NCBI RefSeq assembly: GCF_000472285.1
Contig: NZ_KI421423.1
Location: 13,711-77,710 of the forward strand
Length of the DNA stretch: 64,000 nucleotides
Source of the DNA: Desulfuromonas sp. TF
Lineage (GTDB): Bacteria > Desulfobacterota > Desulfuromonadia > Desulfuromonadales > ATBO01
Reading direction: 5' to 3'
Under the pieces are notes generated by a model. That model was not told the origin of the DNA. It made no database searches and saw nothing but the letters and a program-made list of their open reading frames with translations. The position numbers and the translations under genes are program-made. This document shows positions 23,590 through 41,754 of the stretch, piece by piece (position 1 is the first letter of the stretch; each line of letters starts with the position of its first letter).

Positions 23590-24189
23590 CTATATGTTTT
23601 TTAGTTGCTTTTCTCTTAAGTAACTTTCTGCTTGTTCGAGATTTTTTAACCCAATTTTTTGGGTGAGGTTTAACAATAGTTCGGATGTTAAGTTCTTTTT
23701 ATTTAGATAGGCGCTCATGGCGTGTTTAAAATAAAGTTCCACTGTGCGCTCACCATATGTTTCCAGTTCACTTCGTAAAAATATCCAAAGCTTGCCTCCA
23801 TCGACGGCAGCATTCACATAGGGACAACAAAGTTTAGATAAAATAGGATACTTGACTTGTAGTTCGCGGTGCCAATAAACACTTATTGCTACAATATCGA
23901 TTATGAGAGGATTTTGAGTAATATATGGAATACAATTGTCTATACGATCATATTTTTCAGTTATTAAATTTCGACCATTGTTTTTGGCACTTTTAATGTG
24001 ACTCAGATAGTTCTCCAACATTTCATATGTCCATACTTTTAAAATGCAACTCCTTATTGTCCTAAATTTGAAAGGATCACTATGGCAAGCCCAAACATTT
24101 CGCGTCGTTAATGAAATCGACATCTCCCATTCTATATCCAGTATATAATTTATAATCGATTCTTTACCCATGAGTTTGATTATATCCAT
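23590..24189 (-). CDS. DUF4125 family protein
   Basis: A 199-residue protein matching the DUF4125 pattern as I know it: INYILDIEWEM, FKFRTIRSCILKVW, AKNNGRNLITEKYDRID, then VEAISVYW-like and ETYGERTVELYFKH. Function of the family is unknown. The gene is very AT-rich compared with most of the window. It sits between the hairpin behind the DUF1329 gene and the flavoprotein gene, with 36 bases to the latter, and the two may be expressed together. No good ribosome binding site is seen at the ATG. Confidence 0.65.
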   Translation of the reverse strand: MDIIKLMGKESIINYILDIEWEMSISLTTRNVWACHSDPFKFRTIRSCILKVWTYEMLENYLSHIKSAKNNGRNLITEKYDRIDNCIPYITQNPLIIDIVAISVYWHRELQVKYPILSKLCCPYVNAAVDGGKLWIFLRSELETYGERTVELYFKHAMSAYLNKKNLTSELLLNLTQKIGLKNLEQAESYLREKQLKNI

Positions 24190-24360: not shown

Positions 24361-24396
24361 AGAGGTACTGGCCTACACGAAATGGCCAGTACCTCT
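24361..24396. terminator. Strong hairpin after the bss operon
   Basis: A perfect 13-bp stem, AGAGGTACTGGCC (24361-24373) with its complement at 24384-24396, and a 10-base loop. It lies about 90 bases past the DUF1329 stop in an otherwise gene-free 294-base gap (24190-24483). There is no U run on either strand, so it may be a transcript-end stabiliser or a weak terminator separating the bss operon from the two distal genes. Confidence 0.45.
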
Positions 24397-24483: not shown

Positions 24484-25797
24484 TTAACGACCAGCTGAAC
24501 GCAGTTGCTGGACCGAGAACAATTCGGGCGTTGTTTCGGGGGCATTTGTAATGGTTTTGAACTCTGCCGTGGTGCAGTGATCGGCCTGAACATCGATCAT
24601 AGAGAAATAATTATACATAGCGACACCGGTTCCCTTGTTTTGCGGCGCATCATAATCCGCATGTGTGTAGCCGATAATAAAGTTTTTCCAGAATTTCCCG
24701 GAGCGGTCATAAATAAAATTGAGAGGCATACCAAATGTTTGGGTATCAACATAGTGGATCCGTTTGCTGACCGGATGAGCTTTATCCACCGGCGAAGATT
24801 CTAATATATACATTTTCCGTAGCTGCCAAGTCACATCTGGGAAACAACCGCCTTTGCCCGTTACAGCGATCATCTTATAGCCATCAGGATCGTTTTTATA
24901 GATCTCTTGGTCCAGGGGCATCTCATTGTGGTTATAATATGGTACTAGGACATTTTTTGTTCCTTTGTAAGTCCAATTCATATCGCTGATACGGCCATTA
25001 TATCCTTCGAAGTCTTCAAGAGTAATATCAGAGCCTAGAAAGGCATCTGTATATTGCCCGCTGGACATGCGGCGAACCCGACGTTGGTAACCGAGGTAGA
25101 GGTAGGAATTATCTAACTTTGTATCATCTTGATAACGCTGAATGAGAATCTGCGTGTTTTTTATATCAAAGGGTTCCTCTGCCATTATATAGGTGCTACG
25201 GAAAAGCTTGTCGGGGTTAGGGGTGTATTCGGGAAAGGGGGCGACCCTGGTGCGATTGCTGAGTTTCATAAAGTGAAAGTTAAACCTCAGGTTTCGCTCA
25301 ACCTGACCGGTTTTCATGTTGCGGTACTGCCAGAACCAGGGATTGATCCACCAAGAATCCCCTTGGGAGTACGATTTTCTGAAATTCCAGATCAACTTTT
25401 CACCGGCCCTGGGATCATCGGTGGTGAGCTCGTTCACAAAGGGGAGTCCAGAATCAGCATTATAGATAACGCCAACCTTGTCGCCAAGCTTGGCTCGATT
25501 GAGGTTAGCCTTTGTCGCTTCAATAAAGTCCGGATGTACGTCAAAAGAGGTGGTCTCGCCGACCGTGATCACATAGTCGCCGTCTTTAATATAGGTCAGA
25601 ATTTCCTCCGGGAGCACGTCTTTGGCAACCTGCCAGTTGCTTGCATTGATGACCATCCCTGGTGTGATCCCGGCAGCGGAGGGGACACCGCTCTTGTAAG
25701 GATAGAATGTCTTTTCCAAATCCGCCTCGGTCGCTGCCAAAGCCGTAGTTACTGCCAGGGTTAAGTACATCAGGTTCAGAATAATTTGGTTTCTCAT
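24484..25797 (-). CDS. DUF1329 periplasmic protein
   Basis: A 437-residue protein with an N-terminal signal peptide (cleavage near residue 21, TTALAATEA). The family segments are WQVAKDVLPEEILTYIKDGDY, the NFHFMKLSNRTR region and RKMYILESSP. DUF1329 proteins are LolB-like and found beside DUF1302 outer-membrane proteins and MMPL pumps. It is the last of the four-gene envelope set at the end of the bss transcript, 25 bases after DUF1302. A role in moving a hydrophobic compound through the periplasm is inference from gene neighbourhood. Confidence 0.85.
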   Translation of the reverse strand: MRNQIILNLMYLTLAVTTALAATEADLEKTFYPYKSGVPSAAGITPGMVINASNWQVAKDVLPEEILTYIKDGDYVITVGETTSFDVHPDFIEATKANLNRAKLGDKVGVIYNADSGLPFVNELTTDDPRAGEKLIWNFRKSYSQGDSWWINPWFWQYRNMKTGQVERNLRFNFHFMKLSNRTRVAPFPEYTPNPDKLFRSTYIMAEEPFDIKNTQILIQRYQDDTKLDNSYLYLGYQRRVRRMSSGQYTDAFLGSDITLEDFEGYNGRISDMNWTYKGTKNVLVPYYNHNEMPLDQEIYKNDPDGYKMIAVTGKGGCFPDVTWQLRKMYILESSPVDKAHPVSKRIHYVDTQTFGMPLNFIYDRSGKFWKNFIIGYTHADYDAPQNKGTGVAMYNYFSMIDVQADHCTTAEFKTITNAPETTPELFSVQQLRSAGR

Positions 25798-25822
25798 GGC
25801 ACTTTTCCTTTCTTTTGTCTAA

Positions 25823-27511
25823 TTAGAAGGTGTAGCGAAGGGTCAGTTGGATTTCATCTTCTTGGTTGGCAACGCCCATAGGTCCGTTAGTAAAACGAGC
25901 CAATGGCTCATAATCGTTGGGCAGCGATTCTCCTGCCAAGGCATCATTTGCACTCCAGTCGAATTTTTTCTTGCCCCCGGATTTGACATTGGCGGTTAAG
26001 GTTATCTTCAGATTGTCGGTCATAAGCCATTCGATGCTTGGTGCAACTGCCATCCCGTCACTTCGAATGTCACGCGCCATCAGGAGTTGGGGGCTGATCC
26101 GGTCGCTGTACCACCAGCCCTTTAAGAGAAGGGTGGCGGTCCAATTGTCTTTGTAGTCGGGCATATCGTTCTCATGATCCAAGATGTGCTGACCAAATAC
26201 CTGGGTAGAGATCAGGAAGGCGCGCTTCTTGTTAAGAAAGGGAATCATCTGGTTTTTGTCGAAACCGATTACATAACGGACAATGTCAGTTTCTTTGTGT
26301 CCGTCCTTATCGCGGGGAAGTTCTTCGCCATTTGTGTAGACGGCCTCCAGTCGCCAAACCGCATCCATCGACTGGGAGTAGTAGTCGATGGAACCACCGA
26401 ATAAGTTGACCCTGGGGAAGACAATATCGAAGACCCCATCGGTTGCGGGCAGGCCGCTACCCGGGACTGCCGGATGCTCTCGAAAATGCAGAGACGGCAG
26501 TTGCTGACGGTAATGCAGAATATTGGCAGAGAAGGTCGTGTCTTTGTAGACACCTTCAAATTTCAATCCGATTTGAGTGTTTCTTAATTTCCAGCTGGGG
26601 ATATCAACATCATGAATAATGGGTACTGGTCCTCCAGGATACAGGGGGCCAACTACAGGGTGAGCATCGATATTCAGGTAGGAGCTGAAGAAATTCCCGG
26701 CATCCAGGATCGCATACGGTTGGCCGGACTGGCCGAGGACGCTGGGCCGGAACTTGTCGAAATTCCATACCAGGGTGGAATTGAACTCACTGAAAATGCC
26801 GGTTTGTCCCATGCGTGATTCAGCCTGCAATATCCACTGTGGGATGCGGATATCCTCCAACTCGTCATAAATGTTATGGCGCGAATAATCGACCGGATTG
26901 ATGACATCGAGCACTCTGAACAGGTCGGTTTTTCCCCAGACAACCTGTTGTTTGCCAAGGCGAACGGCAAATTTATCGCCGCCAGACAGGTCGTAGGCCG
27001 TGTCAAGATAGAGTTCTCTTATGAAGTCAAATTCATCATTGAACTCCGGGAACTTGGCCTCGTCCTCATCCAGGTCCATGTAATCATCAAGATTCCTACA
27101 CAGAGTTGGATCGTTTTCGCAGGGGAATGGCACGGGAGCAGAGAGAAAGGGTTTCCCGCCCAAAATCGGGTGGCCGGTTGTTGCATCGCCTCGGGGGTGC
27201 CAGTTTTGCCCAAGATAGTCTTCCCTTGCAGACGCTCCGAATTCATCATCGTTCAGATCATAAACGCCATCATAAGTGGCACGCAATACACCATTGATGG
27301 AAAACTGGGAAAAGAAGTTGCTGTCGATCTCCTTCATAAACTCCAGCTGTGCGGTATTGCGAAATTTTGATAATCCCCGTCCGTCTCTGACATGTGTGGC
27401 GTTTTCAAGAAAGCCATCAACCTCGACTTTTTTCGCTCCTACCGGTGTCGTAAGCAGCAGCATGCCGCCAATGCAGGCGATCATACCTAGGAGCACCTTT
27501 GTCGCTTTCAT
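25823..27511 (-). CDS. DUF1302 outer-membrane beta-barrel protein
   Basis: A 562-residue protein with a signal peptide (MKATKVLLGMIACIGGMLLL, cleavage near TPVGA) and a C-terminal phenylalanine (QLTLRYTF), the usual signature of outer-membrane barrels. The repeated pattern of alternating aromatic strands fits DUF1302. I start it at ATG 27511, overlapping the MMPL stop by four bases (ATGA); a frame seven codons longer lacks a site. With DUF1329 and MMPL it forms a typical cross-envelope set for hydrophobic substrates such as sterols or hydrocarbons. Confidence 0.85.
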   Translation of the reverse strand: MKATKVLLGMIACIGGMLLLTTPVGAKKVEVDGFLENATHVRDGRGLSKFRNTAQLEFMKEIDSNFFSQFSINGVLRATYDGVYDLNDDEFGASAREDYLGQNWHPRGDATTGHPILGGKPFLSAPVPFPCENDPTLCRNLDDYMDLDEDEAKFPEFNDEFDFIRELYLDTAYDLSGGDKFAVRLGKQQVVWGKTDLFRVLDVINPVDYSRHNIYDELEDIRIPQWILQAESRMGQTGIFSEFNSTLVWNFDKFRPSVLGQSGQPYAILDAGNFFSSYLNIDAHPVVGPLYPGGPVPIIHDVDIPSWKLRNTQIGLKFEGVYKDTTFSANILHYRQQLPSLHFREHPAVPGSGLPATDGVFDIVFPRVNLFGGSIDYYSQSMDAVWRLEAVYTNGEELPRDKDGHKETDIVRYVIGFDKNQMIPFLNKKRAFLISTQVFGQHILDHENDMPDYKDNWTATLLLKGWWYSDRISPQLLMARDIRSDGMAVAPSIEWLMTDNLKITLTANVKSGGKKKFDWSANDALAGESLPNDYEPLARFTNGPMGVANQEDEIQLTLRYTF

Positions 27512-29976
27512 TGTCCTTGTTCTGCCGGGCATGTCGTACCTCCTTGTGCTATTTTATGTGACGATAATGCTGCAGAGGGGGAGAAAGAGTGGATTACTCC
27601 ATCCTCGTCCTCGTAGGCAGCGCAGATAAACTTCGGTCTAAACACCAACACCCACGCAGGGACCAGAATCATTGCAGCAATTGCGTTGAGAATGACCATA
27701 ACAATAAGCAACAAGGCCGCGTCGGCCTGGAAGCGCAGATCAGACAGGATCACCCACATGACAATCCCAGAAATCAGGGTAAGGACCGTGAAGCTGATTG
27801 CCTGGCCTGTGGTGGTAATGGCTCGCTTTACGCTCGAACTAATGGATTTCAAAGTCACCATTTCAGTCCGAATCCGATCCATCATGTAAATTGAATAATC
27901 AATTCCGACACCAATACCCACGGCTATTATCGGTACGGTATTAATATTGATCCCCATCCCTGTCATTCCCATATACCCATAGGTTAGGGAGGTGGCGAAG
28001 AGCATCGCCATAAACATCATCAGTCCGGCTGCGAGGGAGGAGTAGAAGATGGTGACGAAGGTGAAAATCAGCAAAAACGCCAAGGGAAGCACTTTGAGGT
28101 TGGTTTCGTATGCCGCTTCGTTCATGGCCGCTGTTACTCCAATGGTGCCTCCCGCCAAGCGTATTGTCAGCCCTTCGACCTTGCCCTCGTTTTCGGCTAT
28201 CCACTGCTTAGCGGTATGAATCGCACGCCGGATCGTCTCGCCCCGGTGATCCTTGTAATAGAAAACGAGATTGGCCATTCGTTCGTTGGGATCGACAAAC
28301 TCATTCAGGGCACCTGGGATGGGGTTGGACATCATATAGGTGAACATCAAACCGCCAACGTACGACGAATCCTTGGGGATCTGATCCCACCGTGGATCAT
28401 TGTTGTGCAACAGTCGGTTGACCTGCTTTACAAGCCCCTGAATGCCTTTGACGCCGCCTACCTCGGGGTCCAGCAGCATGTGCTTTTGCAGGTCTCCCAG
28501 GGCATGTAATACCTCGGGTCGCTTGATACCTCCCTTGCTGTCGGTCTCAGCGACCAGGTACAGTTCCTCGGACCCCGGGAATCGATCATTAATCTCCGTG
28601 GAAGAGATGTTGTAGTCATGATCCTGATACAGGATTGGAGAACCCGGTTCAGATTCGCCAATAACGACCCTCGATGAGGCAAACCACCCTCCGCACAGCA
28701 AGACACCTGCGCCAATCAATGCCACTACTGCCGCTTTTTTAGAGCTGATGATGCTGGCGCAAAAGGTACCAATCCCACGAAAGAAGGTCTGCTTGATCAA
28801 GGTATCTTTCGGTTTGGGTAATATTGACAACAGCAAGGGTACCGACAACAGAACGGTGACGATGAGGGACAGTGCCCAAAGGGAGGCGTAGTGGGCCAGC
28901 TTGGTATTAAGGGGGATGGAACCTATGGCGATCAACAGCAGACCAATGGCATCTGAAACAACACCTAGGGTTCCAGGGCGGAACAGGTTCTCAAATGTCT
29001 TCCGGGAAGCTTTGTGGGGGTCCGGGTCTATGGCGAGTTCTTGGTAGTAGCGTTCTACCAGTTGGATACCGTGAGACATGGCCCGCGCACTGATCAGGAA
29101 GGGGATGACCAGGCCAAGCGGGTCCAGGTTGTAGCCGAAGAGGGAAATGATGCCGAGTCCCCAGATGCAGGAAACAATCACCCCCGCCAGCGGAACCAGC
29201 ACCCCGTAAACATTCCGAAAATAGAATATTAACAGGAGAACCATGATCAGCGCGGTAAACAAAAAGATCTGAATGACCTGGTCCAGGTATTGATATGCCC
29301 AGCCCACCAATATCGGCTGGCCGGTTGCAAAAATGCGGATTCCTGGGGCCGTTTCCTTTGTACGTAGCTCCTGAACCTGCTTAAATGTCTCAGCGTAATC
29401 GAGCTTCCCTTCATTCAATTGGCCCTTGATCAAGGCCATGTGCAGATCTGGCGATATCAGGGGGCCATAAACACGGGGGTCGGCCGATACCTCCTGTCGA
29501 ATGGTTGCAAGTCTTTCTGCCGACAGGTCTGTTTGGGCAGGGTCGTAGTAGGGTTCGGAGTTGACGTTGCCGTCATTGGTCAACCAGACCTTGCGGGTGT
29601 TGCGATGGGTGAGACTGGTCACAAGGTTGTGATTTATTCCTGGCAGCCTATCCACCGCTTGGGTAATACGGTGAATCCTGGCCAAGGTTTCGTTGCTGAA
29701 AATATCGCCATCCTCAACCTCAACGCCTACAATTATCACGTTGGCACCGCCAAAGGACTCTTTGATTTCGTTGTGCAACTGGATGTAGCTGTGAGTTTGC
29801 GGCAGTAGGTCGGCAAAATCCGAATAGATCTTCACAGCCGGGATCTGCGCAGCGAAGAAGACCGTCACAAGCAGGATCAGCCCGAGGACGATTTTGGGAT
29901 GATAGAATACCTGCTTGTCTAATTGGTTTAGCAGATGAGTAATTTTATGAGCTTTTCCGGATGTTTTGTCTGGCAT
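27508..29976 (-). CDS. RND/MMPL family transporter
   Basis: An 822-residue MMPL-type RND permease: a first helix around residue 30, two large loop regions, and two sets of five or six helices. The VGIGVGIDYSIYMMDR motif (about 705-720) holds the aspartate used for proton coupling. An AGGAG site precedes the ATG at 29976, 15 bases after the upstream gene. MMPL pumps of this kind accompany DUF1302/DUF1329 genes in many hydrocarbon and sterol loci. Export or uptake of toluene-type compounds or a metabolite is inferred. Confidence 0.88.
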   Translation of the reverse strand: MPDKTSGKAHKITHLLNQLDKQVFYHPKIVLGLILLVTVFFAAQIPAVKIYSDFADLLPQTHSYIQLHNEIKESFGGANVIIVGVEVEDGDIFSNETLARIHRITQAVDRLPGINHNLVTSLTHRNTRKVWLTNDGNVNSEPYYDPAQTDLSAERLATIRQEVSADPRVYGPLISPDLHMALIKGQLNEGKLDYAETFKQVQELRTKETAPGIRIFATGQPILVGWAYQYLDQVIQIFLFTALIMVLLLIFYFRNVYGVLVPLAGVIVSCIWGLGIISLFGYNLDPLGLVIPFLISARAMSHGIQLVERYYQELAIDPDPHKASRKTFENLFRPGTLGVVSDAIGLLLIAIGSIPLNTKLAHYASLWALSLIVTVLLSVPLLLSILPKPKDTLIKQTFFRGIGTFCASIISSKKAAVVALIGAGVLLCGGWFASSRVVIGESEPGSPILYQDHDYNISSTEINDRFPGSEELYLVAETDSKGGIKRPEVLHALGDLQKHMLLDPEVGGVKGIQGLVKQVNRLLHNNDPRWDQIPKDSSYVGGLMFTYMMSNPIPGALNEFVDPNERMANLVFYYKDHRGETIRRAIHTAKQWIAENEGKVEGLTIRLAGGTIGVTAAMNEAAYETNLKVLPLAFLLIFTFVTIFYSSLAAGLMMFMAMLFATSLTYGYMGMTGMGININTVPIIAVGIGVGIDYSIYMMDRIRTEMVTLKSISSSVKRAITTTGQAISFTVLTLISGIVMWVILSDLRFQADAALLLIVMVILNAIAAMILVPAWVLVFRPKFICAAYEDEDGVIHSFSPSAALSSHKIAQGGTTCPAEQGQ

Positions 29977-29991
29977 TGCTAGGGCTCCTGA

Positions 29992-30993
29992 TTATTGTTC
30001 CTGTTTGGTATTTGTGGTTATTATTGTTCCCCTACCACCGGCAACCAGCAGTAGATCATCGGCGAGGACCTCTCCATCACGGAGATAACCGTTCGCGTGG
30101 AGGTGTGACGTATCAAGAGCCACCCAGCGCTGATCACTCAGTTCGAGGACTGTGCCATGCTCCCCGAAGACGAAAAGTCGGCCACCCTCGGCATGAAACC
30201 CGTAAAGGGGAAAGTCGGTGGGCGTCTCTTGACGCCTCCAGGTTGCACCGCCATCGGTGGTGTGTAGAATCGTCCCATACAGTCCGGCAGCCCAGCCATG
30301 TTGGAGATCGGCAAAGTAGCTGTCCTGAGGATAGAAATCGGCAGGAAGCATACCGAAGCGTTGCCAGCTTTGACCGCCATCCTCGGTTTTGGCAGTCAAA
30401 CCGAACTCGCCGAGAACAAATCCGTTTTGCGCATCGAGGAACTTAATTTTGGTCAGCATCGCATCCTGGTCGAGGCTGTTTTCTTTCCAGCTCTTACCCT
30501 GGTTTGTGCTGTGTAAAAGGGTGGTGAAGCTGCCCACAACCCAGTAATCACCGTTGGGAGCGCAGGTCAGGGAGAGCATGTCTTCTCGGGTAGGCAGATC
30601 TGACTTGGTCCAGTCCTGGCCGTTGTCGATGCTGATCCACACTTGCTGCTCCACGCTCAGCGCGATCAGCGAGTTGTCGGGACAGCTGTCAATGTCGATA
30701 AGATTGGGTTTCCCCATCAGCCCAGTACGAGTCCACTGCAGTGGTTCCTTAATGCCATTGGGCTTAGGGCTGGTAATAATTACCCCCGTGTCGCCGACAA
30801 CTGTAACGACAGCCTCATTGGTTGCGACAGCCTGAAAATTATCAGTACGACGTACCGACTTTGTTCTCTCCTGATGGACGCCGTCAAGATCCAACTTTGC
30901 CTCGCAGCCCATAAGCAACAACGGGAATGCTAAAAGTAACAATACTGTTTTGATTTTCCGTGGATGTGACTCCAGCTGGTTTCTAAATGTCAT
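29992..30993 (-). CDS. YCF48-like beta-propeller lipoprotein
   Basis: A 333-residue protein with a lipoprotein signal (lipobox LLMGC, Cys30). It then has repeats of about 45 residues carrying the sequence TxDGGxSW or similar (TEDGGQSWQRF, TTDGGATWRRQ, STNQGKSWKE, SIDNGQDWTK), as in YCF48/BNR propellers. Plant and cyanobacterial YCF48 helps assemble photosystem II; bacterial relatives next to MMPL/DUF1329 genes probably act as scaffolds for the envelope complex. A GGGAG site precedes the ATG at 30993. Confidence 0.85.
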   Translation of the reverse strand: MTFRNQLESHPRKIKTVLLLLAFPLLLMGCEAKLDLDGVHQERTKSVRRTDNFQAVATNEAVVTVVGDTGVIITSPKPNGIKEPLQWTRTGLMGKPNLIDIDSCPDNSLIALSVEQQVWISIDNGQDWTKSDLPTREDMLSLTCAPNGDYWVVGSFTTLLHSTNQGKSWKENSLDQDAMLTKIKFLDAQNGFVLGEFGLTAKTEDGGQSWQRFGMLPADFYPQDSYFADLQHGWAAGLYGTILHTTDGGATWRRQETPTDFPLYGFHAEGGRLFVFGEHGTVLELSDQRWVALDTSHLHANGYLRDGEVLADDLLLVAGGRGTIITTNTKQEQ

Positions 30994-31062: not shown

Positions 31063-32760
31063 TTAGTTGAATAACTTTTTAAATACTAACGGAAGTTGAT
31101 TTAAATTCTCAACGAATTGTACATATTTGCCATATTCTTTTCGAAGCATATCTTTATTCATTGGGTCACATTTTAAACCAAGAGTCAAAAGACGAATTTT
31201 ACTCTCTTCGCAGTGTCGTATAGCATCACTTACACCGCATCCCCAATTTGATGCACCGTCGGTAAGGTGAATGATAATGGGCCTCCGTTTGCTGTCTCTT
31301 AAGAAGAGAGTTGTGGCAATAATTGCCTCACCGGAAGCTGTCCTCCCGTGGGGTGTAACGGAAAAGAATTTTCCCTGCATGTAGATTTCCGTAATGCGGC
31401 AAGTATCCTTTCTTTCGTTGTAAGCAAAAATTCTGGCATTAGAGTTATAACTGAGAATTGCCAAAAAAAGTGTCTGATAGATTGTTTCAATTTTTGCCCA
31501 CTTATCAGGTTCAGCCATGGACCCGGTGCAATCAACGAGAAGTATGATGTCATTCTTGAGTTCGAAAAAAAATTTTTTCATGGTGAAAATTGAACCGTTG
31601 GTTGCAACTCTGAACAACCTTGAACGATCGATCTTCCCTGATTTGAGTCCTCTATTGTAATTGAAGTTACGTTGAGCAAGCGATCTGAAGAAGGTTTTGA
31701 GTTGATAGAGGAGTGCGTTGTCAACGGTGTTTCTTGCCGGCATAACGAAGTCGTTCCCTTCGACGCGGGCCATGTCGCCAAAATTAGCAACGACCCCTTT
31801 CACCTGCTCAGTGAAATCTACACGTTTCTTCTGAAGGTTTCTTTCTATCTCATCCGCGTAGCTGAGGAGTATCGATCTGACGGCTTCCTGAGCTCTGCCC
31901 TCCCTCTCATCATTTTCCCTGATGGCTCCAGAGACAAGAAACGGGTCTCTTCGGTCTGCTGGCCAAAACTTCACCTTTTCGAGTAGTTTGTCGAAGATGG
32001 CTGCATATAGTTCCAATCTAAAGTCACAGCGATCTTTTACGCTTGATCGTGATGAACACCCCTTCTCAAATCCTTCAACAATGCCATTGAGAATTGCCAA
32101 TGGCTCTCTGTAAAACTGGGTAGAAGAAATACGCCCCACCATGCCAACGACTGTGGGATCATCATATTCCTTTTTGTACGCGACTTTTTCCCTGTCAGTC
32201 GCCATATCCCACCATATATGCATAAGTTCTATGAATGTCGGTGGTGAGATGAATTCGTTCTTGGCTTTTCTTTGCGCCCATTTCCTTGCTCTTTCGGTGT
32301 AGGCCCCGTAGATACTCCTATTCGAAATAAGGTCTACGTAGACCTTTTCGGCCATCTCGATGAATCTGGAAAATTTATATTTATAGACTGGGGACAAAGC
32401 GTAGTTTGTGCGTGCCATATGGATGACATGATCCGTCCATTCTGTTTTGTGAAAGGCTTCGTGTACAGCTATCCCTACGACAATATCTGCCTTGTCCGCT
32501 GGGATGGGGTACGCTCCTAGAACCGGTGAGGGGTCGAGAGCAATATCCTCCGTCTTGTAGGGCATTCCTTCCCAGACGACGGAGCCGATATTTCTGCCGA
32601 TGTGCGAAACGGCTTTGCGGATGCCGCCCAGTAGCTTGGCCAGCTCCAGTAATTCAACGGACGATTTGTCCCTGCGCCAGTAGGCCGAGTGGCCGACTTC
32701 CGCGCTTACGAGGAGGCGCCTTTTGGGGGCTATGTTGCATTTGTATTCGCATCCACGCAT
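31063..32760 (-). CDS. VWA-domain protein paired with the AAA ATPase
   Basis: A 565-residue protein. The C-terminal 190 residues form a von Willebrand A domain with the metal site in LLVDCTGSMAEP (DxTxS-type MIDAS), the TASGEAIIAT segment and IIHLTDGASN. The N-terminal part has HEAFHKTEW. Paired with the MoxR-type ATPase just upstream (9-base gap), it resembles NorQ/NorD or CoxD/E-type chaperones that insert metal or remodel enzymes. Here the pair lies in the bss operon, as AAA and VWA genes do in other bss loci. A role in benzylsuccinate synthase activation or repair is inferred. Confidence 0.78.
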   Translation of the reverse strand: MRGCEYKCNIAPKRRLLVSAEVGHSAYWRRDKSSVELLELAKLLGGIRKAVSHIGRNIGSVVWEGMPYKTEDIALDPSPVLGAYPIPADKADIVVGIAVHEAFHKTEWTDHVIHMARTNYALSPVYKYKFSRFIEMAEKVYVDLISNRSIYGAYTERARKWAQRKAKNEFISPPTFIELMHIWWDMATDREKVAYKKEYDDPTVVGMVGRISSTQFYREPLAILNGIVEGFEKGCSSRSSVKDRCDFRLELYAAIFDKLLEKVKFWPADRRDPFLVSGAIRENDEREGRAQEAVRSILLSYADEIERNLQKKRVDFTEQVKGVVANFGDMARVEGNDFVMPARNTVDNALLYQLKTFFRSLAQRNFNYNRGLKSGKIDRSRLFRVATNGSIFTMKKFFFELKNDIILLVDCTGSMAEPDKWAKIETIYQTLFLAILSYNSNARIFAYNERKDTCRITEIYMQGKFFSVTPHGRTASGEAIIATTLFLRDSKRRPIIIHLTDGASNWGCGVSDAIRHCEESKIRLLTLGLKCDPMNKDMLRKEYGKYVQFVENLNQLPLVFKKLFN

Positions 32761-32769
32761 GTGATGCCC

Positions 32770-33645
32770 TCAGATTGCCTTTTGCAGAAAATTGCTGTCG
32801 AACAGTACGTATTCGGTAACAACGTTTTCATCGTAGCCCTTGTTGAAATGCAAACCTGCCAGGATGGTTTCGAGTATTTCCTGGTTTGTCTGCAAGCTGA
32901 CCGTCAAGGACTGCCGTAGCGTGGCGCCGACGGCCATCATGTCGCCCAACATAAGTGCTGTGCGGGTGGACACGTCCATGCCAAGGTCGCCGTGCCCGCG
33001 CAGAAAGTTCAGGGCGGCCATGATGTCCGCGGCCTGTTCCGGATTGATCCCCGTTTTCATAATCAGGACTTCTTTTTCGACTTCGTTCGGTAGGTAGTCC
33101 ATCAGCAAAAAATAGAAACGATCACGGAGTGCAGCATCCAGCACCTCGGTTCCGACAAAATCTTCCCCTTCGTTTAACGTTGCGAAAAAGACAACGCCCT
33201 CTGCGACCTTCAGATGACCCAACTCTTCCAACCAGACGTCCCTAGTGTCCGAAAGGAGAGAAAAAAGCATGTTAAGAGCCTTGGGATGCTCCGGACGGTT
33301 GATCTCTTCGAGATGAATGACTGTGTTGGGCGTTTGAATGGCTTCAGGAAATAAAAACTGCCTGTATTTCGTCTCTCCTGCTTCCAGGGCGTACTCGCCG
33401 AACAGCTGACCCGGTTCGGAAAGAATCCCAACCTGAAAGGTCGACAGGGGGCGCTGGTAGATAGCGGCGAATTGCCTTACCAACGAAGATTTACCACACC
33501 CCTGACGGCCGGAGATCAGCACGTTCACCGGCTTTTTTTGCGAAAGCAGGTTGATCTTTTCGAAGATGTCGGCAAGATCTTTGCTCACATAGAAGTATGG
33601 ATCTTCCGGAGGTATCGATAAATTCTCTTTTCTGTTTGCTGACAT
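32770..33645 (-). CDS. bssE: MoxR-type AAA ATPase (BssE-like)
   Basis: A 291-residue AAA+ ATPase of the MoxR/NorQ type. Walker A is SGRQGCGKSSL (about residue 46), Walker B is TVIHLEEINR, sensor 1 is FFATLNE, and the arginine-finger segment is DAALRDRFY. BssE is the similar ATPase in bss operons. It is thought to act as a chaperone on benzylsuccinate synthase, with the VWA protein encoded next. The symbol rests on family and operon position. Confidence 0.78.
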   Translation of the reverse strand: MSANRKENLSIPPEDPYFYVSKDLADIFEKINLLSQKKPVNVLISGRQGCGKSSLVRQFAAIYQRPLSTFQVGILSEPGQLFGEYALEAGETKYRQFLFPEAIQTPNTVIHLEEINRPEHPKALNMLFSLLSDTRDVWLEELGHLKVAEGVVFFATLNEGEDFVGTEVLDAALRDRFYFLLMDYLPNEVEKEVLIMKTGINPEQAADIMAALNFLRGHGDLGMDVSTRTALMLGDMMAVGATLRQSLTVSLQTNQEILETILAGLHFNKGYDENVVTEYVLFDSNFLQKAI

Positions 33646-33758: not shown

Positions 33759-34820
33759 TCAGGCCAGAAAATGCATTTGAGTCAGACATTTTTCGACATG
33801 GCGCAGGATGTCCTGACAGTCTTCGGTATAGAGATCTTTTGCGGACTTGCCGCCGGAGCGTAGTGACCGGGCAATGGCCTTTCCGCACCGGTAGCCACTA
33901 TCCATGGCCGCGCTGATTCCTTCGCAGTTAAGGTAGATAAAGCCAGCCGCTTCGCCGGTAAGGAGCACATTCTCCTTGCCCATAAAGATCGGCAGGAGTT
34001 CACACATGCAACCCTCGTCCCGCCAATGTTCGCCAAAAGTGACGCCGAAGCGGCTCGAAAGCAGTTCTTTGAATTTCTCCATAGAATCCCGAAGGTTGCG
34101 CCCATCTACCCCACCCACATGCATAACCAGATATTCATCCTTCTGATGGACACACAGGATGTAATCCCCAATGTCAGGCCTCAAGAAGACGGTCCAACCA
34201 TCTTTCTTTAGTGAGCCCAGAGACCCCACTTTGTAATAACTCTGAAAGGATGCGAGCCTTTGCCTTTGGGCGGATTCCGGAGTCTGTGCTCTGAGTAAAC
34301 GCCGCACGGTCGAATCATTGCCATCTGCGCCCACGAGGTACTTGCAGGTGAAGACGGACGATTCGTTCGATCGAGCCGTTTGGACATGAACCTTCACAAA
34401 ACTCCCGCTGCTGTCAAAGGCTTTGACACGCGTACCGTCACGGTACCCCGCACCCGATTGATCAAGCAGCCATTTATCAAACTTGTTTCGCCAGATGTTC
34501 TGATAGGTACGTGAGAACTTTTTGCCATCCTTGTCTATTTCCCAGGTATATGGGATATAGCCTCGTTCATCATCCCATTCGCAGATGTCGTCCGCTTGCA
34601 CGTATTTGTTGCTGCAATAGACCTCAGGCGGAGCATCGCCCCCCAAATATGTCCTGACGAGTTCCTGGGTCTGTCCGAACAAGACACCGGAACAGGTCTT
34701 GTGTCGGGGGAGGAATTCTTTTTCGAGGACAAGGACACTGAACCCTTCATCCTTAAGTGCCTTGGCACAGCAGGAGCCTGCGGGCCCGGAGCCGGCTACG
34801 ACGACATCATACAGTTGCAT
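33759..34820 (-). CDS. Geranylgeranyl-reductase-like FAD-dependent oxidoreductase
   Basis: A 353-residue flavoprotein: N-terminal DVVVAGSGPAGSCCAKALKDEGF, LVGADGNDSTVRRLL, and LLTGEAAGFIYLNCEGISAAMDSG. These are signatures of the geranylgeranyl-reductase/FixC-like group of FAD oxidoreductases, which reduce or hydroxylate hydrophobic or CoA-linked substrates. An AGGAGG site precedes the ATG at 34820. It sits between bssB and bssE on the same strand. I know of no such gene as a standard part of bss operons, so its role here is unclear. Confidence 0.8.
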   Translation of the reverse strand: MQLYDVVVAGSGPAGSCCAKALKDEGFSVLVLEKEFLPRHKTCSGVLFGQTQELVRTYLGGDAPPEVYCSNKYVQADDICEWDDERGYIPYTWEIDKDGKKFSRTYQNIWRNKFDKWLLDQSGAGYRDGTRVKAFDSSGSFVKVHVQTARSNESSVFTCKYLVGADGNDSTVRRLLRAQTPESAQRQRLASFQSYYKVGSLGSLKKDGWTVFLRPDIGDYILCVHQKDEYLVMHVGGVDGRNLRDSMEKFKELLSSRFGVTFGEHWRDEGCMCELLPIFMGKENVLLTGEAAGFIYLNCEGISAAMDSGYRCGKAIARSLRSGGKSAKDLYTEDCQDILRHVEKCLTQMHFLA

Positions 34821-34910: not shown

Positions 34911-35138
34911 TCACACATGCTCCCGGAAGCTGAGCTTGCCGACCTCGTGGCTACCGCAGGTCATATTGTTCACGTCGGTTACCCATCTTTTCCACACGCC
35001 ACCCATTGGAGTTCTGTTGACTGTGCATTGTCCCCGAAGCGGATTGGTGGGATCGGCTATTTGCCATTTGCAGCTACGGCAAGGTTTTTTGGTTCCAATT
35101 TCCTCATGCATCATTTTGTGATTAGTCGTTGCGCTCAC
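34911..35138 (-). CDS. bssB: Benzylsuccinate synthase beta subunit
   Basis: A 75-residue protein with four cysteines, Cys20, Cys23 (PCRSC), Cys38 and Cys61, as in BssB, which carries a low-potential Fe-S cluster and covers the active site of BssA. It has GQCTVNRTPMGGVWKRW and NNMTCGSHEVGKLSFR, strongly like known BssB. The start is taken as GTG at 35138, with AAGGAGG eight bases upstream; a longer ATG frame at 35171 would run through that site. It follows bssA after a stable hairpin. Confidence 0.82.
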   Translation of the reverse strand: MSATTNHKMMHEEIGTKKPCRSCKWQIADPTNPLRGQCTVNRTPMGGVWKRWVTDVNNMTCGSHEVGKLSFREHV

Positions 35139-35202: not shown

Positions 35203-37794
35203 CTAATTCAGTTCCGTATTCAGGTCTTCAAGCTCATTTGAACCAAAAGATTGCTCGTTTCTGGCAATAATCGTGTTTTGACCATATGTGGGGATATCCA
35301 CAAAGCGGGCGCTGAACCCCGAAACCCTGACGATGAGGTCCTGATGTTTCTCGGGTTCCTTTTGTGCCGCCTTCATCTCTGCGGTGCTTACGCAGTTAAA
35401 CTGGACATGGTCGATGTTGAGTTTCTCCCAGGTATCCATATAGGATTTCCAGATATCAAACCCATGGACGCTTCGCATGATCGGCACGGAAAGCCTCTGA
35501 TTGAGCAGGTTGGCCTTTTGATTTTTCTGCACCTTGGAAACTGATTTCAGTACTGCAGTCGGCCCTTTCTTGTCCGTGCCCATGTAAGGAGAAATTCCGC
35601 CGTCGTCACCGGCATCGCCCCCGAAACGACCATCCGGGGTCGGGCCTGTCCGTGACCCGATTTCCATGTAGAGTCCGACCGCCTGACCTACCGGAAGTAC
35701 GGGGCCGCCCGAGTAATTGGTGATCTTCGACATCTCGCCGCCAATAATATCTTCGTAAAAATCCTTGATGATGGCATCGGCGTAGTCGTCGTCATTTCCC
35801 CATTTGGGCGCATTCAGGAACTCCTGGCGCATGTCTTCAAAGCCGCTCCAATTTGCCCGGAGTGCAGTGACGAGCTGGGCCATCGTGTACTTCTTCTCGT
35901 CATAGATCAGTTTCTTGATTGCGACCAGGGAGTTGGCGGCAACGACCGTAGTGATGGGGTTGTGCCAACCGTTCGGTTGCTCGGAAAGCTCCATGGCATC
36001 AATGCCCAACTCCATGCAGCCATCGTCGATACTGGAGACAAAAGGCATCTGCAGGAACTTCGACTCGAAATAGCGCATTATGTCCTTGGCGCGGATCACC
36101 TTGCTCGTCGCGTAGGCATACTGGGCCCTGAAGGCTTCCCACAACTGTTCGAACGTCTTGAACTCGGTAGGATCACCGGTGTGGGGGCCCAGCTGCATTC
36201 CGGAATAGGACCAGTCAAATCCGTCAGCCAGCACGATTTCCATCATCTTGGCCGGGAAGATCGAGCCGCCACCTTCGGACCTGGTTTTGTGGGTCTTGCG
36301 CCTGCCGCACACGCCGGGAGACATGCACAGAACCAGGCCCCAGTAATGGGCCTCGGCATCGGTTGCGCCGTTGTTGTTCTTGCTGAACTTGCTGTAATAC
36401 TTCATCTGCTCCGTACCAATGACGTCATGCTTGATGGATGGGTAGCCCAGACCATCGCGGATGCACTCGAAAACGAGGCGTTTGGTCTTTTCCCGGCCGA
36501 CCGGATGCCACCTGAACACGATGGACGGTTCCGTGGTCCTGATATTCCTCGCCCCTTCGAGAATCGCGTCGGTCATGTCGCTGCAGGCATCCACATAGCC
36601 AAGCTTGGTCCCGCCAATGGTCAGAATGAAAAGATCGTTGGAACCGGGGAAAATTTCGCGGTACGCCCTGGATTTTCCGGCACCATGTTCAGAAATTTTC
36701 AAACGTTCCATTTCAACCATTTCGACGGCGTCGGCATAGGTCATAGGTTGAAAAGATTTTTCTTTGACGCTGATATTGTAGTAAGGCTCCAGCAGTTCAT
36801 CTTCCTTATGGGCGTAGCCGCTGGCATAGCGATCGATGGCATGGCAGATGAGGTACGTATACCATTTCGCCTGAAAGGCATCCTTCAAACCCCTGCAAGG
36901 CTCTGCGGGCACACGGTGGCTTATTTCGGCAATCTCCAGCAGCTCTTCCCTCCTTGCTGGATCTGGCTCGAAATTCTCGGCGACGATTTTGGCCAGGCGG
37001 GCATGACGCCGAGCCCAGTTGATTACTGCTTCATCTGCAATAATCATTGACTTCCAGACATCGATCTTTCCTATCCAGTCGAGCCCGGTTGTCGCATTCC
37101 AAGGGATTTTTTGCATCTCTTTTTGGGCATGCTCGATCTTTCCTTTTGCCATCTCTATCCGCTTCAGCAAACCGTCCTGCACGACTGTCTCGTAAGGTGG
37201 GCAGATGCTGTTGTACCCAGTAGCAAAACCTGGAGCTTCCATGGTGCTTACCTGGTACATTTGCAAGAGCTCTTCTTGAGTAAAGTAGCGCTCTCCCTTC
37301 GCCTGCATACTGTATCGCTTCCAGTATTCGTTAATTTCAGCCGCCTCTTCTACCGGCTGAGGAGCATAGTCGCTCATGAGGTAGTCCTGGACGGCCATAT
37401 AAGAAAGTTCAGGGTAGAGAGGGAACATCTCAGGATCTTCTGCGTGATAGCCAATAATGAATTCGTCCTGCTGTAGAACCAAGGTGCTCTTGTTTAAGAT
37501 ATTTTGAAGGCCCAATGCTCTTCTGATTACTTCCGGTTGGCCTGCGCTAGCCTTATGTGCCTCAGTGATAAAACGCATCCTTTCTATGCCTGCCCTAACA
37601 TCACTGTCTACAAATTCACCGGCAGCGGCATGTTTCCATCTACAACGTGCCTTTAGTCTTTTAGTTCTTTCAGTACTCGGACGGGCAAGGTTCTCATGCA
37701 GCGCTTCATCTGCTATCTCGATTTCCTGTGGATTTGTTAACGGAAATTCTATTTTTTTGCCTCGATACTTAATTGATTCTGCGACCGTTGCCAT
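35203..37794 (-). CDS. bssA: Benzylsuccinate synthase alpha subunit (glycyl radical enzyme)
   Basis: An 863-residue glycyl radical enzyme. The thiyl cysteine is Cys490 in VLCMSPGVCGRR, the fumarate-binding arginine is Arg505 (KTRSEGG), and the radical glycine is Gly826 in VRVSGFSARFVD. Spacing Cys490 to Gly826 equals that in Thauera BssA as I recall it. The N-terminal KRLKARCRWK region and long stretches such as DDGCMELGIDAMELSEQPNG read as BssA rather than pyruvate formate-lyase. It adds fumarate to the methyl group of toluene or a close relative. The start at 37794 follows bssC by three bases, with GAGGAGG in the end of bssC. Confidence 0.92.
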   Translation of the reverse strand: MATVAESIKYRGKKIEFPLTNPQEIEIADEALHENLARPSTERTKRLKARCRWKHAAAGEFVDSDVRAGIERMRFITEAHKASAGQPEVIRRALGLQNILNKSTLVLQQDEFIIGYHAEDPEMFPLYPELSYMAVQDYLMSDYAPQPVEEAAEINEYWKRYSMQAKGERYFTQEELLQMYQVSTMEAPGFATGYNSICPPYETVVQDGLLKRIEMAKGKIEHAQKEMQKIPWNATTGLDWIGKIDVWKSMIIADEAVINWARRHARLAKIVAENFEPDPARREELLEIAEISHRVPAEPCRGLKDAFQAKWYTYLICHAIDRYASGYAHKEDELLEPYYNISVKEKSFQPMTYADAVEMVEMERLKISEHGAGKSRAYREIFPGSNDLFILTIGGTKLGYVDACSDMTDAILEGARNIRTTEPSIVFRWHPVGREKTKRLVFECIRDGLGYPSIKHDVIGTEQMKYYSKFSKNNNGATDAEAHYWGLVLCMSPGVCGRRKTHKTRSEGGGSIFPAKMMEIVLADGFDWSYSGMQLGPHTGDPTEFKTFEQLWEAFRAQYAYATSKVIRAKDIMRYFESKFLQMPFVSSIDDGCMELGIDAMELSEQPNGWHNPITTVVAANSLVAIKKLIYDEKKYTMAQLVTALRANWSGFEDMRQEFLNAPKWGNDDDYADAIIKDFYEDIIGGEMSKITNYSGGPVLPVGQAVGLYMEIGSRTGPTPDGRFGGDAGDDGGISPYMGTDKKGPTAVLKSVSKVQKNQKANLLNQRLSVPIMRSVHGFDIWKSYMDTWEKLNIDHVQFNCVSTAEMKAAQKEPEKHQDLIVRVSGFSARFVDIPTYGQNTIIARNEQSFGSNELEDLNTELN

Positions 37795-37797
37795 TAG

Positions 37798-37977
37798 TTA
37801 CCTCCTCTTTTTGAATTGTTGACATGATTCAGAAGTGTTGACTGTTGGCTTAGATAGATAATATTTGCCTTTACTATCTTCCTTTTCTGTCACACAATCC
37901 CCCTTTCCAGGTTGATAATCACCAGCATTCTCTGGAACCTGGAAAAACCACCTGCATTCTTTACATGTACTCATCAT
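37798..37977 (-). CDS. bssC: Benzylsuccinate synthase gamma subunit
   Basis: A 59-residue protein with four cysteines (Cys5, Cys8, Cys28, Cys52), TCKECRWFFQVPENAGDY and KGDCVTEKEDSKGKYYLSKP, as in BssC, which binds an Fe-S cluster and clamps BssA. The start at 37977 overlaps a short upstream frame by ATGA; a second ATG follows directly. AAAGGAGG lies upstream. It is located between bssD and bssA, the usual bssDCAB order. Confidence 0.8.
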   Translation of the reverse strand: MMSTCKECRWFFQVPENAGDYQPGKGDCVTEKEDSKGKYYLSKPTVNTSESCQQFKKRR

Positions 37978-38045
37978 TTATCCTCCTTTACGGACTTGGG
38001 TGGGTGATCTAGACAAAAATACATGCTGCATTCACAGACATTCAT
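37974..38045 (-). CDS. Candidate 23-residue cysteine-rich micro-ORF
   Basis: ATG at 38045 opens a 23-codon frame ([11 protein letters not shown] then LDHPPK) ending in TGA that overlaps the bssC start as ATGA. It begins inside the last codons of bssD, with AGGAGGA just before it. The layout suits translational coupling of bssD to bssC; whether the peptide does anything is unknown. A leader role without a functional product is equally likely. Confidence 0.3.
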   Translation of the reverse strand: MNVCECSMYFCLDHPPKSVKEDK

Positions 38046-38730
38046 GTCTATCCTCCTTTCTAAATAGGTTGTATTCACAATTCCTCGTTCCAAAAATTCC
38101 ACCTATCGTAACATGATCCAGGCCAATCTGCTTTAAAGAGTTAAAAAGCGGTTTAACCTGTTGCTCTGATAGGTCTTTAAACTTCTTGTATTCGTACTTG
38201 TGGCCTAATTGTCTGTATTTAACAACTCCGTAAGAGTGAAATGGCAAAATATCAACTCCTGAGAGCTTATCTGAAAATTGGCTTAAATATTTAACATATG
38301 CCTCCAGCTCCGAGCTTGAATCATTGAAACTTGGTATGATAGGCAGATGTATTAGAACCTTTGCCTGAGATTCGATAAGTCTTTCTATGTTTCTTAGGAT
38401 TTTTTCCAAGGACCCGCCTATGACTTTTTGATGTTTGTTTGGATCCATTGATTTGATGTCAACAATGAATAGGTCAACAAACTTGATCAGAGGTTCGATC
38501 ATATCCCAGTCTGCATAAGCAGATGTTTCAAGGGCTATGTGAAGATTTTCCTTTGTTTTAAAAAGACGGGCCAGTTCAAGGGAAAATTTTGGGAAGAGGA
38601 GCGGTTCGCCGCCGCTTATTGTGATGCCTCCACCGCTGTGCTCATAAAAAATCTTATCAGCTACAGCTTCCCGAACGATGTCACCAATATCTAATGTTTT
38701 GCCTACGATCTCATCGCACCAAAGTGGCAA
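38032..38730 (-). CDS. bssD: Benzylsuccinate synthase activating enzyme, C-terminal part (split bssD)
   Basis: The 232-codon frame carries the SAM-binding and barrel segments of a glycyl-radical activase: [43 protein letters not shown] and [14 protein letters not shown]. It lacks the N-terminal radical SAM cluster, which lies in the overlapping upstream frame. The first eight codons are probably not native protein; real homology begins at about [11 protein letters not shown]. Together with the upstream part it makes about 330 residues, the normal BssD length. Confidence 0.75.
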
Positions 38731-39023
38731 TGTTTAATGCATTTGAGGCAAGAGTTACATTTCAGTCTGTTAAAAGTGAGGGCCCTCTTCTTGTTTAAAC
38801 CTTGGATCATATGTAGCGAGCCCGAAGGACAGATTTTTACACACTGACCACATGCAATACACTTGTCAGTGTGATAATAAATCTCATGCCTGGGGTTAAT
38901 AGACTCTGGGTTGTGACACCAAGGGCAATGGAGAGGGCATCCCTTTAAAAATATAGTAGTTCTTATGCCAGGCCCATCATGTAAACAAAATCTTTGGATC
39001 TCTGTTATAAGTGGTATTTTCAT
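38703..39023 (-). CDS. bssD: Benzylsuccinate synthase activating enzyme, N-terminal part (split bssD)
   Basis: The 106-codon frame has [21 protein letters not shown], the Cx3Cx2C radical SAM cluster, and two ferredoxin-like 4Fe-4S motifs ([22 protein letters not shown]). These features are typical of glycyl-radical enzyme activases. The frame stops at HFGAMRS while the next frame, one base back, goes on with the missing barrel. A single-base deletion near 38720 (or an assembly error) would explain it. BssD makes the glycyl radical on BssA. Confidence 0.75.
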
Positions 39024-39095: not shown

Positions 39096-39266
39096 TCAAT
39101 TGATATGTGTATTTTGCAATAAACGTTCTACGCGTATATAAAGTTTCATATCCTCTGAATACGCTATACGTACTTTCCATCCATTGCTAAATGTAACCTC
39201 CGTAGGATACAAATCATCGTTCGAAGAGTATCTCAGCCCTTTAGTCAAATTACCTTTTTTCCCCAT
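39096..39266 (-). CDS. Small ORF leading the bss operon
   Basis: A 56-residue basic protein (MGKKGNLTKGLRYSSNDDLY, then TEVTFSNGWKVRIAYSED). AAAGGAGG is seven bases before the ATG at 39266. It is the first gene after the sigma-54-type promoter and lies 72 bases before bssD. I do not recognise it; a beta-strand-rich small domain is possible. The strong ribosome binding site argues for translation. A longer frame begins at 39344 but has no such site. Confidence 0.5.
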   Translation of the reverse strand: MGKKGNLTKGLRYSSNDDLYPTEVTFSNGWKVRIAYSEDMKLYIRVERLLQNTHIN

Positions 39267-39407: not shown

Positions 39408-39424
39408 AGCAGGTCACGTGCCAA
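39408..39424 (-). promoter_or_regulatory. Sigma-54-type promoter for the bss operon
   Basis: Read on the minus strand: TTGGCACGTGACCTGCT. The -24 element TTGGCACG is perfect, GG and GC are 10 bases apart, and -12 reads CTGCT. Transcription would start near 39397, 130 bases before the 56-residue ORF. Confidence 0.75.
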
Positions 39425-39995: not shown

Positions 39996-40010
39996 CTTGA
40001 TAAGATCAAG
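39996..40010. promoter_or_regulatory. CTTGAT-AAG-ATCAAG palindrome upstream of the activator gene
   Basis: A perfect 6-bp inverted repeat with a 3-base spacer, 44 bases before the activator start. It contains the GATCAAGG core (40004-40011) that also occurs twice upstream of the bbs promoter. Its TTGAT/ATCAA arms resemble the TTGATC half-sites of XylR/DmpR-type activators. Autoregulation and action on bss from a distance are both possible. Confidence 0.45.
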
Positions 40011-40053
40011 GATTGTCTTAGGCAGCACTGTTTTAACGAAAAGGATGTTTGCG

Positions 40054-41754
40054 ATGAGAAAGAGCGAGAAAGGGATAAAAGAGCCTGCTCCTAACGATAC
40101 TTTCCGAAGCAATTTGCGTTCAGAGTTAAGCTTTTGTAGTGATACCGGTCAGATATGGCTACACGAGCATCGGATGCTTCTCGTTCATGCCGATGCGAAT
40201 GCCCTGATGCGACGAGAGTTGATCGACATCCTTGGATTTAACCATGCGCGAGGTGTGCTTATGCGAATGGGCTATACTTCAGGGGTCCGAGACTTTGAAC
40301 TTGCACACATAAACAAGGAACACACTAATCTTCACGAAGCCTTCATGGCCGGCCCAATCCTTATAACACTGGAAGGACTTGTGAAGACCACCATTACTAA
40401 GTTAGAAATAGACTCGAAATTAGGCAGTTTTTACGTTGAGTGCATCTGGGAAAATTCTTGGGAGGCCGAGGCACACCTTCGAGACTATGGGGTCTCTTCG
40501 GCACCGGTGTGTTGGAATTTGATTGGGTATGCGAGTGGCTATTGTACTGCTTTCATGGGTAAGCCAATTTTGTGCAAAGAGATCCAATGTTTCAGTACGG
40601 GGGCAAATAATTGCTACCTTGTAGGCAAGCCAGTCGAGGAATGGGAGGACGCGAGCGAGTTTGAGCTTTTTTTGAATAAGGAGTCGATTGCTGAACAACT
40701 CATGGGTCTCCAAACTGAAGTTGTACAGCTGCGGTCAGCATTAGGTAAACAACAAAAACATACGTCAGATATAGTTGGCAATTCACCGGCCTTCCTTGCT
40801 GCCTATGAGCTCGCTGTCCGAGCATCTGCTAGCCAGATTACTGTACTTCTGCAGGGTGAGACAGGTGTTGGTAAGGAAGTTTTCGCCCGCACCCTTCACA
40901 GCGGAGGTGATCGTTGCAAGGAACCGTTCATCGCCATTAATTGCGCTGCGATTCCTCATGACCTTGTAGAATCCGAATTATTCGGTGCTGAAAAAGGTGC
41001 CTTTACGGGCGCACTTTCCTCAAGGCCCGGAAGATTTGAACGGGCCAATGGAGGAACGCTCTTTCTCGATGAGATAGGTGATCTGCCTCTCTCGGCACAG
41101 GCAAAACTTTTGCGTGTATTGCAGGAAGGAGAGGTGGAGCGTCTTGGCAGCACAGAATCACGTAAGGTAAACGTCAGATTTGTGGCAGCAACCAACATCG
41201 ATCTGAAAAAATTGGTTGAGGAAGGGAAATTTCGGGCTGACCTGTATTACCGGCTCAACGCATTGCAGATCAATATCCCACCATTAAGAGATCGAGGTTT
41301 AGATGTTTTACTTCTCGCGAAGAATTTCCTCAAAAAGTCTGCCATGTTGAATGGCAAAAAGGTGCGTGGATTTTCTGATAAGGCCAAGTTGGCACTACTC
41401 GCCTATCAATGGCCTGGTAATATCCGAGAACTGCAGAATGTTGTTGACCGCGGAGTCATGCTGGCACCAAACGGCACCCATATTGAGATCAATCACATGT
41501 TTCCGTCGTACAATAATGAGGGGCCTGAATTCGGCTTGGATGCCAGCGGGGGGCTCAGTGTCAAGCAGGAGGAGCTGGGTAAGGATTTTTGTGAAGCCAT
41601 CCTGAGCGGGAATTTTACGCTGGAGCAGGCCAATACGCTGGTGGCAGAGGCTGCTGTGAAAAAGGCAAACGGCAATATTTCCGCTGCTGCTAGGATGCTC
41701 GGTTTGACCCGGCCGCAGCTTGCGTATCGGCTTGAGCGTAAATCGGGGAATTGA
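40054..41754 (+). CDS. XylR/DmpR-type sigma-54-dependent activator with V4R sensor domain
   Basis: A 566-residue activator. XylR_N/V4R aromatic-sensing region about 25-195 (cysteines 153, 164, 174, 179 and 187, and the HINKEHTNLHEAF region), linker, AAA+ domain about 240-460 (Walker A GETGVGKE at 268-275; GAFTGA at 315-320, which contacts sigma-54), and Fis-type helix-turn-helix at the C-terminus (NISAAARMLGLTRPQLAYRL). Start at ATG 40054 with AAAGGA upstream; a TTG start at 39997 would lie in the palindrome. It is divergent from bss. Family members bind phenol, toluene or xylene directly, so it is the best candidate toluene sensor for the bss and bbs promoters. Confidence 0.88.
   Translation: MRKSEKGIKEPAPNDTFRSNLRSELSFCSDTGQIWLHEHRMLLVHADANALMRRELIDILGFNHARGVLMRMGYTSGVRDFELAHINKEHTNLHEAFMAGPILITLEGLVKTTITKLEIDSKLGSFYVECIWENSWEAEAHLRDYGVSSAPVCWNLIGYASGYCTAFMGKPILCKEIQCFSTGANNCYLVGKPVEEWEDASEFELFLNKESIAEQLMGLQTEVVQLRSALGKQQKHTSDIVGNSPAFLAAYELAVRASASQITVLLQGETGVGKEVFARTLHSGGDRCKEPFIAINCAAIPHDLVESELFGAEKGAFTGALSSRPGRFERANGGTLFLDEIGDLPLSAQAKLLRVLQEGEVERLGSTESRKVNVRFVAATNIDLKKLVEEGKFRADLYYRLNALQINIPPLRDRGLDVLLLAKNFLKKSAMLNGKKVRGFSDKAKLALLAYQWPGNIRELQNVVDRGVMLAPNGTHIEINHMFPSYNNEGPEFGLDASGGLSVKQEELGKDFCEAILSGNFTLEQANTLVAEAAVKKANGNISAAARMLGLTRPQLAYRLERKSGN

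Follow-up and report, generated by a model that had tools for sequence, protein, structure and literature searches.

What do four envelope proteins do at the end of an operon for benzylsuccinate synthase (bss)? The question is raised by a window of 64,000 nucleotides, the whole stretch of DNA that was analysed (contig NZ_KI421423.1, positions 13,711 to 77,710), from Desulfuromonas sp. TF. Here a four-gene cassette follows the bss genes for BssE and a VWA-domain protein. The cassette is very probably a trans-envelope carrier for hydrophobic aromatic compounds, similar to AmeABCD of Castellaniella defragrans and made together with the bss proteins. On balance, the best explanation of the whole is a four-part carrier of this kind, produced along with benzylsuccinate synthase and most likely working outwards. 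The genes of the cassette are the following:

24484..25797, minus strand: DUF1329 protein, predicted periplasmic LolA-like carrier, AmeB-like (437 amino acids; PF07044, 1.4e-65)
25823..27532, minus strand: DUF1302 protein, predicted outer-membrane beta-barrel, AmeA-like (569 amino acids; PF06980, 4.8e-45)
27508..29976, minus strand: MMPL protein of the resistance-nodulation-division (RND) type, predicted inner-membrane pump, HAE3-like and AmeD-like (822 amino acids; PF03176, 3.8e-25)
29992..30993, minus strand: YCF48/BNR-propeller lipoprotein, putative periplasmic adaptor, AmeC-like (333 amino acids; PF14870, 2.6e-21; lipobox LLLMGC)

All four families are encoded side by side in the window, and the quartet was found as a unit in every complete set examined. 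The spacing is 69 bp between the VWA and YCF48 genes, 15 bp between YCF48 and MMPL, and 25 bp between DUF1302 and DUF1329, whereas MMPL and DUF1302 overlap by 25 bp (or by a 4-bp ATGA, if the second ATG is taken as the start). The original prediction had described four open reading frames (ORFs) of these families on the minus strand, following bssE and VWA with tiny gaps or overlaps; its coordinates proved exact, and all four ORFs have Pfam matches.

Families of the four proteins

The pump scores 89 bits against PF03176, well over the cut-off of 20.5, which places it in the RND superfamily. A simple scan for hydrophobic segments resolves 11 but not a twelfth, and the relatives of solved structure are MmpL3, SecDF and Patched. 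Across 21 full-length relatives, the pairs S301-H302 in the first half of the protein and D693-Y694 in the second are invariant; these residues plausibly form its proton path.

The YCF48 protein matches solved Ycf48 structures (7e-17). The DUF1329 protein scores 222 bits against PF07044, above the cut-off, and its predicted model (pLDDT 80) matches the LolA folds 9tp6, 3bk5 and 4z48, so that a LolA-like fold is predicted with good confidence. For the DUF1302 protein (155 bits against PF06980), the low-confidence model (pLDDT 58) resembles porins and AlgE. Its C-terminal residue, Phe569, is invariant, and outer-membrane barrels typically end in Phe. The families and their architecture agree with the earlier suggestion that the set would span inner membrane, periplasm and outer membrane.

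Distribution at bss and other aromatic loci

A scan of genome contigs yielded 70 loci. The bss loci and their close relatives account for about 19 of these (L012-L030); Thauera/Aromatoleum-type bss loci lie outside the survey. The class to which the window belongs is represented by 277 genomes, 10 with bssA and 68 with DUF1329. One of the 10 (G161) was not assessable, as its bss contig stops just after VWA. All nine assessable bss genomes have an outer-membrane hydrocarbon transporter no more than about 12 kb from bssA. A DUF1329 set is found at that distance in seven of the nine, compared with 0.14 expected from the number of sets and the genome size. In the complete genome of G197, the sole DUF1329 set sits between two bssA genes.

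Two subtypes of the cassette account for these occurrences, and the pump tree separates them. The window type, with its permuted order, is near bss in G000 and G247, and a second, distant subtype in AmeABCD order is near bss in G195, G197, G200, G261 and G162; where measured, the pumps of the second subtype are 25-28% identical to that of the window. The order C-D-A-B is seen in the window, the strain's own set B, L014, L137, L142, L144, L145 and L150, and the order A-B-C-D in L015, L024, L130, L146 and others. L014 carries the cassette at the same place and in the same order, with 58-71% identity. The remaining two assessable genomes, G182 and G198, lack DUF1329, and a TodX/FadL channel (PF03349) stands directly after VWA; no TodX/FadL match was found in G197 and G200, which have the cassette. 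At least two separate recruitments to bss loci argue for a real functional link. The order of Herminiimonas, represented by 399 genomes, yielded no further bss locus, and a plasmid search for BssA relatives returned only unrelated glycyl-radical enzymes.

Three side observations concern the loci surveyed. In the YCF48 proteins of the second subtype (L015:15432-16538, L024:7278-8381), an insertion bears a CxxCH motif resembling a c-type haem site (NSCGSCHDPGG in L015); the window protein lacks this insertion. One of the bss loci of Desulfosarcina cetonica has AcrA/AcrB-like efflux genes (L017:18418-20762) 2.8 kb downstream of VWA. A BssA relative (53%) in Desulfobacterium sp. TRIP AH-1 is followed by genes resembling YCF48 and MMPL (L027:12798-15523); the sequence is masked beyond.

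The cassette also accompanies other aromatic pathways. The nearest pump, 83% identical, is in a genome without bssA (G029), beside UbiD- and PCMH-like genes and neighbours that read as UbiX- and phenylphosphate-synthase-like. The relatives L137, L144 and L145 of the strain's own set B adjoin a Mo-enzyme that, among solved structures, best matches 4-hydroxybenzoyl-CoA reductase, and the strain's own set C, in AmeABCD order, adjoins a p-cresol-methylhydroxylase-like gene. On a Pseudomonas veronii plasmid, a cassette of the same type, with a broken pump frame, lies beside phenol hydroxylase genes. Outside the class, a window-type cassette of Herminiimonas sp. CN adjoins bbs genes, as judged by similarity to those of the window. 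The cassette would thus seem to be a transport module that aromatic catabolic islands can exchange. A cassette specific to bss or toluene is ruled out by the phenol, p-cresol and hydroxybenzoyl-CoA copies. The proposal of a cross-envelope system for toluene or toxic hydrocarbon therefore holds in its general form, as judged from the architecture, the signs of an operon, the recurrent linkage to bss and the published relatives, but not in its specificity for toluene.

The bss operon around the cassette

The genes and signals surrounding the cassette are as follows:

39997..41754, plus strand: divergent sigma54-dependent activator of the bss locus (sigma54-activator-type AAA region, from sequence reading)
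39408..39423, minus strand: sigma54-type promoter motif TGGCACGTGACCTGCT upstream of bssD, the best among the matches listed
38032..39023, minus strand: bssD, activating enzyme, in two frames here (single ORF in L131, L012 and L013)
37798..37977, minus strand: BssC small subunit, conserved beside bssA in other bss loci
35203..37794, minus strand: BssA, glycyl-radical subunit of benzylsuccinate synthase (PF02901, 3.1e-156; PF01228, 4e-25)
34911..35138, minus strand: BssB small subunit, GTG start (sequence reading; the DNA is conserved here in other bss loci)
33759..34820, minus strand: FAD-dependent geranylgeranyl-reductase-like (GGR-like) protein within the bss operon (PF01494, 3.3e-16)
32770..33645, minus strand: BssE, AAA (MoxR-like) ATPase (PF07728, 2.1e-18)
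31063..32760, minus strand: VWA-domain protein of the bss operon (VWA Pfam match, 2.5e-4), close to bssE in most bss loci
24361..24396, minus strand: terminator-like hairpin with a 13-bp perfect stem, just 3' of the DUF1329 gene (fold z -3.66)

This neighbourhood is as originally described, except that the FAD reductase had been left unlisted. The sigma54-type motif faces the divergent activator gene, homologues of which (62-78% identical) accompany most of the bss loci in the class, and a TGGCAY...TGCW motif occurs 66-169 bp upstream of bssD in L012, L013, L014, L015, L016, L023, L029 and L030. In the 69-bp gap between VWA and YCF48, a search for a separate promoter found no sigma54-like site. 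None was found before the co-linear cassettes of L014, L015 and L024 either, and L030 gave only 9-match candidates. In L146/L023, an opposite-strand gene parts the cassette from bss, and there the cassette has a sigma54-like site of its own. Matches to consensus sigma70 promoters and to terminators were no more frequent than background. Apart from the hairpin after DUF1329, the minus strand of the window was found to have no perfect inverted repeat of at least 12 bp (loop of at most 15), and an operon end at this hairpin is therefore very likely; in L014 an apparent inverted repeat, read from the sequence, also directly follows DUF1329. A single transcript probably runs from bssD to DUF1329 and ends at the hairpin.

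BssA is the only such enzyme in the genome and is 93% identical to that of Geotalea sp. SG265. Its identity of 92-93% to BssA in genomes of another order of the class suggests a recent transfer of the bss locus. Homologues of the GGR-like reductase adjoin bss in G195, G197 and G200 (70-81%) and lie on another contig in G261 (76%); none was found in G161, G162, G182 and G198. Beyond the hairpin, a DUF4125 gene (23590-24189) of low G+C content (34%) has homologues close to VWA in Herminiimonas (L019) and Desulforhabdus (L025), and looks linked to bss. Between the sigma54-like site and bssD lies an ORF for 82 amino acids (39096-39344) belonging to no Pfam family, with partial matches (49-57%) elsewhere in the bss regions of G182, G198, G200 and G197.

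Relatives, direction and meaning

The kind of system is already known from hydrocarbon and terpene degraders, and any reading of the set as a new one is precluded by AmeABCD, the AphR/AphS/AphT-type operons and the Nanopod cluster. Deletion of ameABCD makes C. defragrans less tolerant of monoterpenes and increases its accumulation of Nile Red (PMC6394551). The window cassette shares with AmeABCD the DUF1302 barrel, the DUF1329/LolA-like protein, the COG4447/YCF48-like protein and the HAE3 RND pump family, as well as the setting in a hydrocarbon catabolic island, although its context is toluene instead of monoterpenes and its pump is only distantly related to those of the A-B-C-D cassettes found (25-28%). 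In Betaproteobacteria, COG4447-COG1033-PF07044-DUF1302 operons are predicted targets of AphR, AphS and AphT, and a role in solvent stress was suggested (PMC6449761). These operons comprise the same four families and are tied to the control of aromatic catabolism but, unlike the window, mostly go with aerobic phenol/toluene pathways. The MMPL proteins of the copies in Methylibium PM1 and on plasmid 2 of EbN1 are about 30-33% identical to that of the window, and the EbN1 copy has the same gene order.

The Nanopod cluster of the benzene degrader ORM2a is highly expressed on benzene, and transport was proposed for it, with the direction left undecided (PMC13101534). It has DUF1329, YCF48, MMPL and a porin-like protein in common with the cassette, but contains in addition a universal stress protein and an unknown gene and is sited apart from the catabolic cluster. 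In Aromatoleum EbN1, a 6.5-kb "efflux" cluster is co-regulated with p-ethylphenol catabolism by the sigma54 activator EtpR (PMC4630880). Like the cassette, it lies beside an anaerobic aromatic pathway under sigma54 activator control, a likeness drawn from its description and not from its gene composition; its substrate is an alkylphenol, as opposed to toluene. Finally, the TodX/FadL proteins of the Geotalea sp. SG265 and Citrifermentans bremense bss loci occupy the same slot directly after VWA, but each is an unrelated single outer-membrane channel that lacks the pump and periplasmic parts of the cassette.

By analogy with these systems, we infer the following course for a putative complex of the four proteins. 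Powered by the proton gradient, the MMPL protein of the inner membrane would take toluene-like compounds from the membrane or the periplasm, and the YCF48 lipoprotein would keep pump and partner together. The LolA-like DUF1329 protein would ferry this hydrophobic cargo across the periplasm, and its passage through the outer membrane would be by way of the DUF1302 barrel. Outward flow would keep toluene in the membrane below a toxic level while it is slowly consumed. Provided that the cassette is an AmeABCD-like carrier, the precedent of Ame and the way in which related pumps are known to work tip the direction towards the outside, and inward movement is the less probable course.

Several points weigh against an outward AmeABCD-like carrier. 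The window has the order C-D-A-B and AmeABCD the order A-B-C-D, so the set is filed as a permuted AmeABCD relative and is not assigned to the AmeD lineage; the likeness is one of families and gene set. Against TIGR00921 (HAE3) the pump scores 121.5 bits (2.9e-35), under the curated cut-off of 351.9, and it is therefore named HAE3-like only. At two bss loci, in genomes without DUF1329, the slot after VWA is filled by TodX/FadL, a family known for uptake, and the export of a growth substrate is an energy cost. In this strain bssD consists of two overlapping ORFs in different frames, with no second copy found in the genome. The frameshift may be real or an error of assembly or sequencing; if real, BssA activation would probably be lost, and toluene growth of Desulfuromonas sp. 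TF is thus uncertain. In Pseudomonas putida, the corresponding proteins PP_0765, PP_0766, PP_2018 and PP_2019 are required for growth on Tween20, which the authors read as substrate transport (PMC10866462).

The P. putida requirement favours the strongest alternative, namely that the same machine serves uptake: toluene would come in through the outer membrane and the periplasm by way of DUF1302 and DUF1329, and MMPL would load it or energise its passage into the inner membrane. TodX/FadL in the same slot of L012 and L013, the cassettes of G197 and G200 in genomes with no TodX/FadL match, and the position of cassettes next to catabolic and not general stress genes are all consistent with this view. 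Small aromatics, however, pass the inner membrane without a pump. Those HAE3 pumps that PMC6394551 cites as characterised export lipids, and AmeABCD acts as an exporter; the AcrA/AcrB-like genes of D. cetonica, read by eye, likewise point to efflux. We consider uptake possible but unlikely, and a more specific form of it, a proton-driven system feeding toluene to benzylsuccinate synthase in place of a passive TodX/FadL channel, a shade more doubtful.

It is improbable that the cassette handles not toluene itself but a lipid or other envelope component, for the repair of membranes stressed by solvent. Lipids are the cargo of the related pumps HpnN and MmpL3, a LolA fold is predicted for DUF1329, and it is a fatty-acid ester to which the relatives in P. 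putida respond (PMC10866462); yet the cassette accompanies aromatic pathways as diverse as bss, bbs, phenol, p-cresol, hydroxybenzoyl-CoA and phenol hydroxylase, and the Ame mutant shows no defect on acetate or on oxygenated monoterpenoids (PMC6394551). That the cassette is a mere neighbour of bss, moved along by gene transfer, is highly improbable, for although the BssA identity across orders makes the locus probably mobile and a genome lacking bss has a pump that is 83% identical, the linkage of no fewer than two distinct subtypes to bss goes far beyond expectation (seven of nine genomes), and order and operon signals are kept in L014.

An AmeABCD-like carrier made with the bss proteins is accordingly preferred. 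What is new is the linkage of the cassette to bss, its two subtypes, and the TodX/FadL alternative in the same slot; a search of the literature on bss with RND, TodX or outer membrane found nothing on a cassette-bss link. The linkage gives bss loci a plausible envelope partner and touches on the question of how an anaerobe gets toxic hydrocarbons of low solubility through its two membranes. Were the uptake reading true, an RND machine would be working inwards on a hydrocarbon. The bss loci themselves form a natural experiment, in which a single slot is taken by a TodX channel or by one of the two cassette subtypes, themselves only distantly related.

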